DNA of 64,000 nucleotides from the NCBI RefSeq assembly GCF_000429825.1, contig NZ_AUCP01000036.1:1-64000 (forward strand), given 5' to 3'. Source of the stretch: Cohnella thermotolerans DSM 17683. GTDB taxonomy: Bacteria; Bacillota; Bacilli; Paenibacillales; Paenibacillaceae. This document shows, in pieces, positions 6,343 to 11,482 of the stretch (position 1 is the stretch's first letter; each line of letters starts with the position of its first letter). The notes beneath the pieces were generated by a model, which saw only the letters and a list, made by a program, of their open reading frames with translations, was not told where the DNA came from and searched no databases. Position numbers and translations under genes: made by a program.

Positions 6343-6372
6343 ATTATATCACGTCCGGAGTGAAAATCACAA
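6343..6372 (-). promoter_or_regulatory. Promoter of rpmE
   Basis: -10 TATAAT (6343-6348) preceded by TGA (extended -10) and -35 TTGTGA (6367-6372), spacer 18, minus strand. The -35 overlaps the end of the radical SAM gene. Confidence 0.7.
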
Positions 6373-7647
6373 CCGGATTTTTCCGTCAATTTTTGGTGCG
6401 GACCCGGCCGCGGGCGGGACGTGGGTGAAGGAGCCGATCGTTACGTCGGGAAGCTCTTCCCTGAAAATGTCGAGCAGCGTTTTCATCCCGTAAATTTCGC
6501 CCTTGGCTTCCGGAATGAGCGCCAAATACGCGTCCGGGTCGATGTTCAGATTGCGCATCTGAATGAGCTTGAGACCCGTGCGGCGGACAAAGCCGATCAT
6601 CGCCTCGATCTCCTCCTCGCGGTCCGTAACGCCCGGGAAGACGAGATAGTTGATCGACGTGTAGACGCCTTTGTCGGCGGCGTACCGGAGCGTCTTCTCG
6701 ACGTTGGCCAGCGTGTAGCCGCGCGGCTTGTAATAAGCGTTGTAATGGTCGTCCAGCGCGCTGATCGTGCTGACGCGCATCAAGTCGAGGCCGGCGTCGG
6801 TAATGGCGCGGAGATGATCGGTCAGCCCCGCGTTCGTATTGATGTTGATGTAGCCCATCGACGTTTGTTCCCGGACGCGCTTGATCGCTTCGACGATGAT
6901 TTTCGCCTGGGTGGAAGGCTCCCCTTCGCAGCCCTGCCCGAAGCTGATGATCGATTCGGGCGTCCGCAGATGCTCCAGCATAATCTCGACGACTTCGTCC
7001 ACCGTCGGCTTGAACTGAAGCCGCGTCTGCGGAGAGACGAAGCCGCTGTCGTCGGGCTGCTCGGATATGCAGCCGAAGCATCCGGCGTTGCAGGCGAACG
7101 AGACCGGAACGGCCCCTTCCCACCGCTGCAGGAAGGTGTTCGACGACGTCAGGCATTCGTAGCCGAGCGCGCAATTGGACAGATGCTTGTACAGGCGGTT
7201 GTCCGGATATTTGTCCAGAAGCCGCTGAACCTGCCGCTTCACTTCGCCCCGGTCGCAGTTCTCCGGATTCCAGCGCTCGGCGTCATCGCTTCGGCAAGCG
7301 GCCACGTAGAAGCCGTCCTTCTTCCAGACAACGGCGGTGTAGCCGAACAAGGGCAGCAGCTGCGTCTTGTCGGTCTTCGTGTAGCCGGGCACATAGAATC
7401 GCGTATAGCCTTGCGGCAGCAGGGCGCCTACCGCGCAATAGTCGCCGGGTACGGGCACCATCCGGCCGGAATCGGGATCGATGCCGACGGGGCGGGTGTT
7501 AGGCAAAGCGACCAGCGTCGCGCCGGGCGGAAGCGGAATGAGATCGTCTTCGAGCAGCTCGACGAGGTCGTTGCCGCTGCGGGCGACGCCATACAGATCC
7601 GGATGGTCGAATACGTTATTGTTCTTGTCGGCGTAAACCAGATGCAT
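6367..7647 (-). CDS. Radical SAM protein of unknown substrate
   Basis: A 426-residue protein. The cluster motif CNAGCFGC (CxxxCxxC, about residues 190-197) binds the 4Fe-4S that cleaves S-adenosylmethionine; GQGCEGEP and the following TIM-barrel strands fit the superfamily. The first 180 residues form an unrecognised N-terminal domain with LPNTRPVGIDP and several cysteines (NCDRG, SNCALGYEC). No SPASM-type cysteine tail. It lies between rho and rpmE, an insertion relative to B. subtilis, and follows rho by 74 bases with a GAGAGGGG site. The reaction cannot be named from sequence. Confidence 0.85.
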   Translation of the reverse strand: MHLVYADKNNNVFDHPDLYGVARSGNDLVELLEDDLIPLPPGATLVALPNTRPVGIDPDSGRMVPVPGDYCAVGALLPQGYTRFYVPGYTKTDKTQLLPLFGYTAVVWKKDGFYVAACRSDDAERWNPENCDRGEVKRQVQRLLDKYPDNRLYKHLSNCALGYECLTSSNTFLQRWEGAVPVSFACNAGCFGCISEQPDDSGFVSPQTRLQFKPTVDEVVEIMLEHLRTPESIISFGQGCEGEPSTQAKIIVEAIKRVREQTSMGYININTNAGLTDHLRAITDAGLDLMRVSTISALDDHYNAYYKPRGYTLANVEKTLRYAADKGVYTSINYLVFPGVTDREEEIEAMIGFVRRTGLKLIQMRNLNIDPDAYLALIPEAKGEIYGMKTLLDIFREELPDVTIGSFTHVPPAAGSAPKIDGKIRL

Positions 7648-7721: not shown

Positions 7722-10010
7722 TCAGGTCGAGCTGCCCTTCGTCGTGCGGCGGGAGCCGGTTCCCGTGCGTTTGGCGGTCGCCTTGGCGGCCTTGGCCTCG
7801 GCCGCTTCCGTCGCGGCAGCCGCGGCATCGCCCGAAGCCGATACGGCTTCGGCCTTGCTCGCATCGGCCGCCGGTGCGGCTTCGCCGGAGGCGCCGGCTT
7901 CCGCGGCGGCTGCGGCGGACTTCGTCCGGGCGCCTGCGCTCCGCGTGGAGGCGCCGGCTTTGCTGCGCGAGCTTGCCGCGCGCGGTTTCGCCGCCGCGGC
8001 ATCCGCGGCCGGCGCGCTTTCGTCCGCGGCGCCTGCGGGGGCGCCGGCGGCCGCAGCCGGTTCGGCCGCCTCGGCCGTCGCCGCCGCGCGGCGCCTTGCG
8101 GGCGCGGCGCTTGCCGGCTTCGCCGTTGCGTCGGCGGCCGGCGCTTCCGGCGCCGGGCCGGAGCCAGCGCTGCTGCGCGAGCTTGCGTCGGCGGCGCCTG
8201 CACTTGCCGGGCTAGCGCTTGCAGCGCCCGCAAGCGCACCGCCCGTGCCGGTACTTGCTCCGGCACTGCCCTGGCTTGCATCTCCCGCATTCGCGATGCT
8301 TGCGGCGCCATTGCTGGCGCCGACCGTGCCCGCGCTAGCACTGCCTGCTCCCGCTGCGCTTGCGCCAGCCGAGCTGGCGGCGGGAGCCGGTCTGGACGCC
8401 GGAGCCGAAGACGACGACCACTGCGTCCCGCCCGACACCGTTCCGCCCGCCGGCTGCGAGGACACCGGGCGGCTCGTGCCCGTTCCCCCGCCGTACGGCC
8501 GCGAAGGCGAAGCGGAGGAATACGAGCCGGTGCCCGTCTGGGGCCGAGAACCGTTGTAGCCGACGTTCGGCCGCGACGTCATGCCCGTTCCGTTCGGACG
8601 CGCGGACGCGCCGGAGCTCGAGTAGCTCGAACCCGACGAATAGCCCGCCCCTTGCCCGGGGCCGGAATAAGCGCCGGTTCTCGCGGGACGGCTTGCGGCG
8701 GAAGAAGTCCCGCCGGAGCTTGCCGATCCGCTCATGCCGCTCGAGCTGCCCGAACCGCCGCTCGAAGCCGATTCGAGCGATTCCAGAAACTCCTGATTCG
8801 TCTTCGTATTCGCGAGCTTGCGCAGGAATTGATCGACGAATTCAATGGAGTCGTTCATGCCTTTGCGGATCGCCCATACTTTGTCCAGTTCCTCCTTGGT
8901 GAGCAGCATCTCCTCGCGCCGCGTGCCCGAACGCCGAATGTCCAACGCCGGGAAGATGCGCCGTTCCGCCAGCTTGCGGTCCAGATGCAGCTCCATGTTG
9001 CCGGTGCCTTTGAACTCCTCGTAAATGACGTCGTCCATCCGGGAGCCGGTCTCGATGAGCGCCGTCGCCAGAATGGTCAGGCTGCCGCCTTCCTCCACGT
9101 TGCGCGCCGCGCCGAAGAAGCGCTTCGGGCGGTGGAACGCCGCCGGATCGATACCTCCGGACAGCGTCCGCCCGGACGGCGGAATGACCAGGTTGTAGGC
9201 GCGCGCCAGACGGGTGATGCTGTCCAGCAGAATGACGACGTCGCGCTTGTGCTCGACGAGGCGAAGCGCCCGCTCCAGAACCAGTTCGGCAACCTTGATA
9301 TGATGCTCCGGCACTTCGTCGAACGTCGAGGCGACGACTTCGCCCTTGACCGAGCGCTGCATGTCCGTCACTTCTTCCGGGCGCTCGTCGATGAGCAGCA
9401 CGAACAGATCGATGTCCGGACGGTTCGTGGAGATACTGTTCGCGATCTCTTTGAGCAACAGCGTCTTGCCCGCCTTCGGCGGCGCGACGATCAGGCCGCG
9501 CTGGCCGAGCCCGACGGGCGCCAGCAAGTCCATGATACGGGTCGACAAACGGGTTGGAGTCGTCTCAAGAACAAGTTTCTCCTGCGGGAATAGCGGAGTG
9601 AGTGCGGGAAAATGGAGGCGTTCGGCAGCGGTCTCCGGAGATTCGCCGTTGACGGCGTTCACCTGCAGCAGTCCGAAGTAACGCTCGCTCTCCTTCGGAG
9701 CCCGGCATTTGCCCGATACGAGATCGCCGGTCCGCAGATCGAACTTGCGGATCTGCGAAGCCGAGATATAAATGTCTTCCGCGCTTGGCAAATAGTTGAT
9801 CGGGCGAAGGAAGCCGTACCCTTCGGGCAGAACTTCCAGCACGCCCTCCATGAACATGAGCCCGCTTCGTTCGGCCTGCGCGCGCAGAATCGCGACGATG
9901 AGCTCCTTTTTCTTCATTTGGCTGTAGTCGGCGATTTGATAGTTCTTGGCGAGCTTGGTCAGCTCGTTCAGCGTCAATCCTTCCAAATCGGCCATCATGA
10001 GATCTGTCAA
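7722..10010 (-). CDS. rho: Transcription termination factor Rho with a long low-complexity C-terminal tail
   Basis: 762 residues where Rho is usually about 420. Residues 1-414 are ordinary: N-terminal helices, cold-shock RNA-binding domain ([20 protein letters not shown]), Walker A PPKAGKT (177-183), [14 protein letters not shown]-loop and [21 protein letters not shown]-loop. Then about 348 extra residues: first Ser/Gly/Tyr/Pro-rich ([11 protein letters not shown]), then Ala-rich with scattered Lys, Arg and Glu, ending basic (RRTTKGSST). Other Rho proteins put extra disordered sequence near the N-terminus, so a tail after the motor domain is odd. Start taken as TTG at 10010 (GGGGA upstream; matches the family start M-DL); GTG 10022 and ATG 9998 are alternatives. 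Confidence 0.93.
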
Positions 10011-10056
10011 TAGAATCCCCACTTTACGATCCGAATGGAGCGATCCGGCAAGCGGA

Positions 10057-11307
10057 TCACCCTTCGCGCCATACTTCGGCGCCCAAATTGCTTAAATGCT
10101 CGACCAGGCGTTCATAGCCGCGGTCGATGTACTCCACGCCGGTAATCTCGGTGATGCCGTCTTCTACCGTCAGCGCCGCCACGGCCAGCGCCGCGCCTGC
10201 GCGAAGATCGGCCGCGCGCACCTTGGCCGCGTTCAACCGTCCGCCTTCGATGATGGCGGACCTTCCTTCCACCCGAATTTGCGCGCCCATGCGAATTAGC
10301 TCCGGCACATGCTTGAAGCGGTTGCTGTACACGAAATCGGAGAGGATGCTGACCCCTTGCGCTTGCGTGAGCAAGCTGGTCATCGGGGATTGCAAATCGG
10401 TCGCAAAGCCCGGATAGACGAGCGCTTTGACATCCACCGCCTCGTATTGAGGCTGGCCTACGACGCGGATCGATTCGTCCATTTCGTAGACGTGCACGCC
10501 CATCTCCTGCAGCTTGGCCGTCAACGCCTCGAGATGCTTGGGAATGATATTATCGATGAGTACGTCGCCCCGCGTGGCCGCGGCCGCGATCATGTAAGTG
10601 CCGGCCTGAATCCGGTCCGGTATGATCGAATGGCGGCAGCCATGCATGCTGTCGACGCCCTCGATGCGGATCGTCTCCGTGCCGGCTCCCTTGATCTTCG
10701 CCCCCATGGAGTTCAGGAGCGTGGCCACATCGACAATCTCCGGTTCCTTGGCCGCATTCTCGATGACGGTGGATCCTTTCGCCCGGGCGGCGGCCAGCAT
10801 AATGTTAATCGTGGCGCCCACGCTGACGACATCCAAATATATTTTAGCCCCGCGCAGTTCTTTGGCCTTGATGCGGATGGCTCCATGTTCGTTGGTTACG
10901 ACTGCCCCCAACGCCTCAAAGCCCTTGATATGCTGGTCAATGGGACGGGGTTCGAAGTTGCATCCTCCGGGCATTCCGATCGTCGCCTCTCCGAAACGGC
11001 CCAGCAACGCTCCCATCAAGTAATAAGAGGCTCTGAGCATCTTGACGCGTCCGTTCGGCATCGGCTTGGAGATCATCCCGGAAGGATCGATAGACATCGT
11101 GTCGGAGGTCCAGGTTACTTTGCCCCCGAGTTCTTCCAGCAATTCGATATAAATCGCTACGTCGCTAAGATGGGGAAGATTATCCAAACGCACTTCCGAT
11201 TCGGCCAGAATGGCCGCGGGCAGAAGCGCGATCGCGCTGTTTTTCGCGCCGCTGATGCCAACCGTTCCTCGGAGCGGCCGGCCTCCGCGTATCATCAGTT
11301 TATCCAT
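10057..11307 (-). CDS. murA: UDP-N-acetylglucosamine 1-carboxyvinyltransferase
   Basis: 416 residues. MurA transfers enolpyruvate from PEP to UDP-GlcNAc, the first committed step of peptidoglycan synthesis, in the cytoplasm. K23-N24 (GAKN) and the active-site C116 in [12 protein letters not shown] are present, so it should be fosfomycin-sensitive in principle. Position between fbaA and rho matches the second copy (murAB/murZ) of B. subtilis. Start at 11307 has AGGAGG 12 bases upstream; the longer upstream frame reads through the fbaA terminator and is not coding. Rho follows after 46 bases. Confidence 0.95.
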
Positions 11308-11364
11308 GAATGCATGGTTCCTCCTAGTCTGCTGCTCATGCACCGGGAGACGGAGGTCACGCCG

Positions 11365-11407
11365 ATACAAAATGAAGGAAAGGGAAAACGCCGCTTGACG
11401 TTTTCCC
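11365..11407 (-). terminator. Terminator of fbaA
   Basis: Perfect 9-bp stem GGGAAAACG/CGTTTTCCC (11382-11407) on the minus strand followed by the T-rich TTTCCTTCATTTT. It lies 76 bases after the fbaA stop and before murA. Confidence 0.75.
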
Positions 11408-11482
11408 ATATCAGAAAGCATGACTGCTTCGAAGGCATGTCCGGCATGCCGGCGCCTCTTAAAATGGTGAAGTCGGTTAGGA

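Follow-up and report, generated by a model that had tools for sequence, protein, structure and literature searches.

The stretch analysed here (the window) comprises 64,000 nucleotides of Cohnella thermotolerans DSM 17683, contig NZ_AUCP01000036.1 (contig C22 of genome G000 in our set). Its minus strand carries a rho gene (10022..7722), found in the open reading frame list and by Pfam domain search, that begins with GTG and encodes 766 amino acids. This is the sole full rho match in the genome. Two further hits, at 29% identity (E value 6e-12) and 25% identity (E value 3e-7), presumably represent paralogous ATPases. From upstream to downstream, all on the minus strand, the order is an EPSP-synthase/MurA-type enolpyruvyl transferase gene (10057..11421), rho, a radical SAM gene (6367..7647) that starts 74 nt past the rho stop, and rpmE, encoding ribosomal protein L31 (6084..6290), the outer two being assigned by domain search. 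In all 51 related loci with data reaching that point, short- and long-tailed alike, the radical SAM gene is the next gene after rho, and the remaining 6 end at contig ends inside the tail, with its position out of reach. As for rpmE, some relatives have it and in others it was not found, although their data extend far enough. Promoter-like and terminator-like sites around rho did not exceed the numbers in shuffled sequence (1 versus 1.3 and 4 versus 6.3).

Residues 1–417 (8772..10022, minus strand) make up a canonical Rho core by Pfam, structure match and predicted fold, with no N-terminal insertion. Rho_N (residues 12–54), the CSD-like RNA-binding domain (58–130) and the RecA-type ATPase domain (162–365) all score over their curated cut-offs, the combination that defines a Rho transcription termination factor, and Pfam finds no domain beyond residue 365. 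Full-length solved Rho chains match residues 10–418, the individual matches ending between query positions 410 and 423, and the Cohnella core is 84–86% identical to three Paenibacillus sequences. By its domains the protein is Rho, with termination and helicase activity only predicted.

The original prediction, that the frame stays open for some 348 codons past the normal end of Rho, was accurate to a codon: the tail spans residues 418–766, or 349 amino acids (nucleotides 8771–7725, followed by the stop at 7724–7722). It has two parts, divided at residue 547 by our own choice of boundary. Segment A (residues 418–547; 8382..8771, minus strand) is 51% Gly plus Ser and holds all 6 Tyr of the tail, within its first 93 residues, together with 8 Arg as the only charged residues, Lys, Asp and Glu being absent. 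Segment B (residues 548–766; 7725..8381, minus strand) is 42% Ala, has no Tyr, mixes Lys and Arg with Asp and Glu, and closes in a basic end (residues 751–766; 7725..7772, minus strand) of the type KR..RR.TK.SST. The whole tail contains 5 Asn, 5 Gln, 9 Lys and 9 Glu, and a tandem-repeat search of it returned only short, weak arrays (best score, 50). AlphaFold2 gives a folded core whose last helix covers residues 409–420, followed by a tail with 10-residue mean pLDDT of 29–46 and no secondary structure. For the tail, hardly any aligned sequences underlie this prediction, and the low pLDDT therefore adds little weight to a case for disorder; the model is consistent with an intrinsically disordered tail.

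Distribution of long tails among relatives

A comparison of Rho tails across Paenibacillaceae, as the original prediction proposed, yielded a divided answer: the long tail recurs in one Cohnella clade and in a second genus of the family (g5), but it is not a general family trait in the genomes examined. Among the 37 Cohnella genomes, all of which were examined, we counted 17 as long-tailed and 20 as short-tailed (21–67 amino acids). Twelve of the long tails are complete (349–505 amino acids) and 4 are cut by contig ends after 138–214 amino acids. The last tail, that of G021, breaks off after 22 residues. These resemble those of its sister G026, from which its long label in the tree is inferred. 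In a tree of core DNA, from which the fragmentary G048 was left out and in which G040 and G058 represent g5, the 17 group together as a single clade (support 100/99). In g5, all 8 genomes examined are long-tailed, these being the 8 among the matches listed in our family sample (the genus may hold more). Six have complete, unshifted tails of 335–544 amino acids; the tail of G129 is frame-shifted (391 amino acids) and that of G109 is contig-cut after 171 amino acids. The tree requires three changes to the long label, in Cohnella, in g5 and in G065, a member of another family whose 166-residue tail has no Tyr and so lacks the Tyr/Arg layout.

Our wider samples frame this pattern. From the family we drew 245 genomes, and among the matches listed for them no open rho frame exceeds 527 amino acids outside Cohnella and g5. 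Five such frames of about 500 amino acids or longer were checked, and the three that could be measured have tails of 34, 42 and 46 amino acids. L141 and L142 (G179 and G213) were omitted because they gave no match, L109 was replaced by the longer L144, and L145 duplicates L118. In the named loci (the best 80 of 591, with no record labelled actinobacterial among the 80), 79 were measured and one long C-terminal tail was seen, in C. rhizosphaerae, the next longest being about 44 amino acids; L001, without a match to the anchor motif, was omitted. The phylum sample gave a match at the threshold used for 113 of its 149 members. Nine frames there exceed 540 amino acids, and they were considered as candidates for further C-terminal tails; all seven that were checked extend N-terminally, with 7–22 residues past the core, stop included. 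Three Rho frames from another family of the phylum (L147, L148 and L149, in G342, G296 and G380) reach about 935–1000 amino acids and carry very long Gly/Ala/Pro/Arg-rich N-terminal additions. Taken as a reconstruction from sequence, the comparison shows that the long tail was gained at least twice, separately in the Cohnella clade and in g5.

Evidence that the tail is real and coding

A frame of 349 codons stays open with a probability of about 0.012 at the local base composition, and one antisense frame across the tail is likewise stop-free. With a chance of around 1% and an antisense frame open too, the open frame by itself proves little, and the case has to be made by comparison. The original prediction named a frameshift or assembly error that would restore a stop near codon 420 as something that would refute it. 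This is excluded by the long tail being directly seen in 16 of the 17 clade genomes, and the tail's place in a genuine Rho protein held in every comparative test made.

More broadly, one observation would fit an artefact, whether a frameshift, a misassembly or a frame running on into the radical SAM gene: of 25 long-tailed genomes, 6 have a contig that breaks off within the tail, where 0.90 would be expected for a stretch of 1.2 kb. Like tails nevertheless occur on chromosome-sized contigs (for example, in G012, G035, G040 and G156), the next gene is conserved and a coding signature is present, so the comparison refutes an artefact, which we regard as extraordinarily improbable. The clustering of contig ends suggests instead that the stretch is hard to assemble and that Rho of such species is perhaps annotated as truncated. 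Fusion or run-on with the radical SAM gene was also rejected directly, because the match to that gene begins at its residue 1 or 2 in related loci. The rho stop lies mostly 16–83 nt before it in long- and short-tailed species (166 nt in G018), with two exceptions whose rho frames extend into the radical SAM start. One is the short-tailed Cohnella G007 (L096), whose 67-residue tail overshoots the usual basic end; the other is G129 (L135), in which the frame has apparently shifted within the tail relative to its relatives, through real change or sequencing error, to give an Arg/Pro-rich end.

Several signatures point to translation. Tail indels were multiples of three in 91 of 91 cases across the 8 closest pairs, which share genomes, and in 54 of 54 across five pairs that share none, bearing in mind that slippage in GC-rich codon repeats may itself favour in-frame indels. 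Over all 12 pairs the count was 136 of 149, the 13 exceptions all falling in the four pairs of greatest divergence. For the tail, dN/dS, estimated like the neutral simulation below from protein-guided alignments, was 0.26–0.41 in the 8 closest pairs and 0.24–0.70 in those four; for the motor domain (about 200 codons) it was 0.00–0.05. Frame-blind nucleotide alignment kept the codon phase in all 8 pairs, with most mismatches at position 3 in all 8 and fewest at position 2 in 7, one pair being tied. A tail that is translated and under selection is thereby well supported at the sequence level.

Origin of the tail

Short Paenibacillaceae tails mostly end in a basic stretch, RR..R and then Ser or Thr. 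When long and short complete tails are taken together, 48 of 51 have a basic pattern (a loose one, counted without controls) among their final 22 residues. Because the basic end is common to both, the long tail probably expanded inside an ancestral short basic tail and kept its end. In g5 the tail again runs from Tyr/Arg/Gly/Ser to Ala/Lys/Glu and a basic end, less strictly than in Cohnella (G156 has 3 Tyr only). The original prediction suggested that the two halves may have separate origins; the recurrence of the same layout in g5 argues for one functional layout instead, which separate origins could still underlie. In G040 and G058 (L122 and L123), a unit of about 32 residues built around KRGRP repeats in tandem through the second half of the tail. 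This KRGRP core resembles an AT-hook and could contact DNA.

We rejected duplication from elsewhere in the genome as a source: besides the self-match, the tail gave only two weak DNA hits, in a membrane-protein-like frame and in a topoisomerase-like frame, both named by eye. The latter (L155; 1722–4073, minus strand, contig C14 of G000) carries a Gly/Ala/Arg-rich low-complexity stretch. Base composition is a further candidate. Core GC3 is 0.72–0.85 in long-tailed Cohnella (n = 17) versus 0.45–0.83 in short-tailed Cohnella (n = 20; Mann-Whitney p = 1e-4, uncorrected for relatedness). As a sole cause it was rejected, given that GC3 in g5 spans 0.54–0.90.

Residues retained by selection

In six non-overlapping genome pairs, Arg was kept at 152 of 163 tail positions (93%) and Tyr at 32 of 36 (89%), against 949 of 1263 (75%) for Ala/Gly/Pro, which served as an equally GC-rich control because their codons are fourfold degenerate with G or C at the first two positions; Ser/Thr were kept at 439 of 662. 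The excess of Arg over this control (p = 1.5e-8) holds outside conserved islands (p = 9.9e-8), in the first 40% of the tail (p = 1.5e-5) and in the rest (p = 2.3e-4). For Tyr against Ala/Gly/Pro/Ser/Thr, the p-value is only 0.024. Lys was retained no better than Ala/Gly/Pro in these pairs (43 of 58; p = 0.88) and Asp/Glu less often (58 of 91). Under neutrality, as simulated from fourfold sites with one genome (G012) entering two pairs, the expected retention is 0.54 (Arg) and 0.18 (Tyr). Arg is thus kept by selection, and Tyr likewise, less surely.

Across the 12 complete Cohnella tails, the first 40% contains every Tyr and, except in G027 (1 Lys and 3 acidic residues), no Lys or acidic residue; nine of these tails contain exactly 6 Tyr each. 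Net charge is positive in all 18 complete long tails counted from the Cohnella clade and g5. Across 23 tails (G129 and G065 excluded; first 150 residues of each), Arg-Pro dipeptides number 105 versus 17.7 expected from shuffles, about sixfold, a count that does not translate into a probability because the tails are related. Six genomes of the C. rhizosphaerae subclade, which excludes the window's, share a 40-column block with 35 invariant columns versus 3–15 in other blocks. The 6 g5 genomes aligned (G129 and G156 were left out) share an invariant block of 11 residues, which G156 lacks. The Ala-rich half of the tail diverges fast. Separately, a short conserved motif centred on LPGEVIG lies mid-tail in L086, L087 and L088 (G019, G003 and G014); it was seen in no other tail compared and may be a candidate binding motif.

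An alternative is that slippage in GC-rich codon repeats swelled a dispensable tail, constrained only to keep its frame and its solubility. The rapid accumulation of indels and substitutions, the Ala-rich repeats and the large tandem units of G040 and G058 would all be expected. We find such tolerated growth improbable, as Arg and Tyr are held well above the simulated neutral level, and Arg above Ala/Gly/Pro. Nor is there a return to a short tail in 16 of the 17 Cohnella-clade genomes (G021 is undecided) or in any of the 8 g5 genomes. General low-complexity inflation in long-tailed species was likewise rejected: open frames of infB, the one control gene and itself one with a low-complexity region, overlap between the groups and are not longer in long-tailed species, a comparison of open-frame length in which several short frames lie near contig ends.

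The main rival to the clustering role that we propose below is a tail that acts solely on RNA affinity, a basic arm that strengthens the grip of Rho on GC-rich or structured RNA without clustering. The strong retention of Arg, the basic end common to most tails and the higher core GC3 of long-tailed Cohnella (relatedness uncorrected) favour it, and the N-terminal IDR of Mycobacterium tuberculosis Rho offers a parallel, as recounted in PMC11829017. Yet long tails also occur at core GC3 of 0.54–0.63 (4 of 8 g5 genomes), short tails at 0.75–0.83 (4 Cohnella genomes), and pure charge binding needs no retention of Tyr. Nor is Lys preferentially kept. That result, like the lower retention of Asp/Glu, does not fit a purely charge-driven model and also tells against our own reading. 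We consider an RNA-affinity arm alone rather unlikely.

Discussion

Intrinsically disordered regions (IDRs) of Rho are already known, and the original prediction had correctly placed the known long additions near the N-terminus, as four papers agree (PMC10284900, PMC13269538, PMC11829017 and PMC4703818). Bacillota Rho is described as mostly without long disordered additions in PMC10284900 and PMC11829017, the latter also mentioning that each of the two domains of Gemmata Rho contains short IDRs. In Bacteroides thetaiotaomicron, the Rho protein (BtRho) resembles that of Cohnella in carrying a long IDR, predicted in Cohnella, on a complete core (301 versus 349 amino acids), with compositionally distinct subdomains and, in Cohnella putatively, short conserved motifs amid divergent sequence. 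The BtRho IDR, however, lies near the N-terminus, is KE-rich and N/Q-rich prion-like, and drives RNA-dependent condensation through short charged motifs, with ppGpp needed in vivo (PMC13269538). The predicted IDR of Cohnella is C-terminal and moves from Gly/Ser/Tyr/Arg-rich to Ala-rich, with its 5 Asn and 5 Gln; condensation, demonstrated for BtRho, is here proposed from sequence features. With Rho_N ending at residue 54, the RNA-binding domain starting at 58 and the IDR following residue 417, the Cohnella protein falls outside the N-terminal-IDR class of Bacteroides, Clostridium and Actinobacteria, in which the IDR separates the N-terminal helix bundle from the RNA-binding domain, and its tail has neither the N/Q-rich prion-like nor the KE-rich composition.

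Clostridium botulinum Rho likewise adds a low-complexity disordered region to a Bacillota Rho, but its prion-like domain sits near the N-terminus and has an Asn-rich amyloid core (PMC4703818). Mycobacterium tuberculosis Rho shares the long addition to the core and the GC-rich organism. In its structure 7oqh, the extension is N-terminal instead: residues 246–618 of 622 match query residues 58–423, and nothing long follows the core. A likeness of another sort, for which we claim no homology, is to FUS-type sticker-and-spacer regions, in which Tyr and Arg are set in Gly/Ser spacers as they are in the Cohnella tail. Its Tyr density is low by comparison: more than 6 Tyr would be expected if a tail of 349 residues held a sticker region, which counts against our best explanation, as do the modest statistical support for Tyr retention and the fast divergence of the Ala-rich half. 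In searches of open-licence PMC papers, no title or abstract opening among the hits concerned a C-terminal Rho tail of this kind. Relative to the N-terminal IDRs of the papers cited here, a long C-terminal IDR would be a new position.

This position has potential consequences for how rings assemble. When E. coli Rho forms C-to-N filaments, its last helix (408–418) touches N-terminal domains of the adjoining molecules; a tag of eight residues at the C-terminus has a strong effect on oligomerization (PMC11829017). The Cohnella tail begins right after helix 409–420, the equivalent of this ring-contacting helix, and could therefore act as an entropic bristle at the C-to-N stacking face that blocks inactive Rho filaments by preventing their assembly. 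Its length is also maintained while most of its sequence drifts. We find this improbable, as a bristle does not require conservation of Arg and Tyr, and a short C-terminal tag helped to stabilize E. coli Rho filaments (PMC11829017).

We therefore return to clustering. Given its start at the last helix and its conserved Arg and Tyr, the tail most likely promotes the clustering of rings, and the selection on these two residues suggests that it probably helps Rho both to grip RNA and to cluster. Condensation or RNA binding, raised in the original prediction, is accordingly still a plausible role to which that selection points, whereas the membrane or ribosome contacts also raised there are speculative. 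Our best explanation, to which we attach about even confidence, is a C-terminal sticker-and-RNA-binding tail that would promote RNA-dependent clustering of Rho. Each subunit would bear a disordered arm directly after the last helix of the motor domain, first a Tyr/Arg sticker region with Gly/Ser spacers and then an Ala-rich part of mixed charge with a basic end. With six such arms, a ring could engage RNA and other Rho rings multivalently and so form RNA-dependent clusters, as condensates or stacked rings. This clustering would probably be tuned by stress; no sequence feature in the tail identifies a stress signal. We infer RNA binding, clustering and stress control alike.

More tentatively, and with somewhat less than even confidence, we envision that Rho came under C-terminal control by condensates or ring stacking at least twice in Paenibacillaceae, through expansion of a short ancestral basic tail into a Tyr/Arg-then-Ala/Lys/Glu arm of the same layout. 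If true, this would be a case of convergence that differs from the N-terminal IDRs studied so far and acts where rings stack end to end. Bacillus subtilis can do without Rho and would be a convenient host for chimeras. The natural short-tailed controls in the same genus, together with repeated gain, could then reveal whether the fate of Rho depends on where its ring carries an IDR: activated, as in Bacteroides droplets, or stored, as in E. coli filaments.
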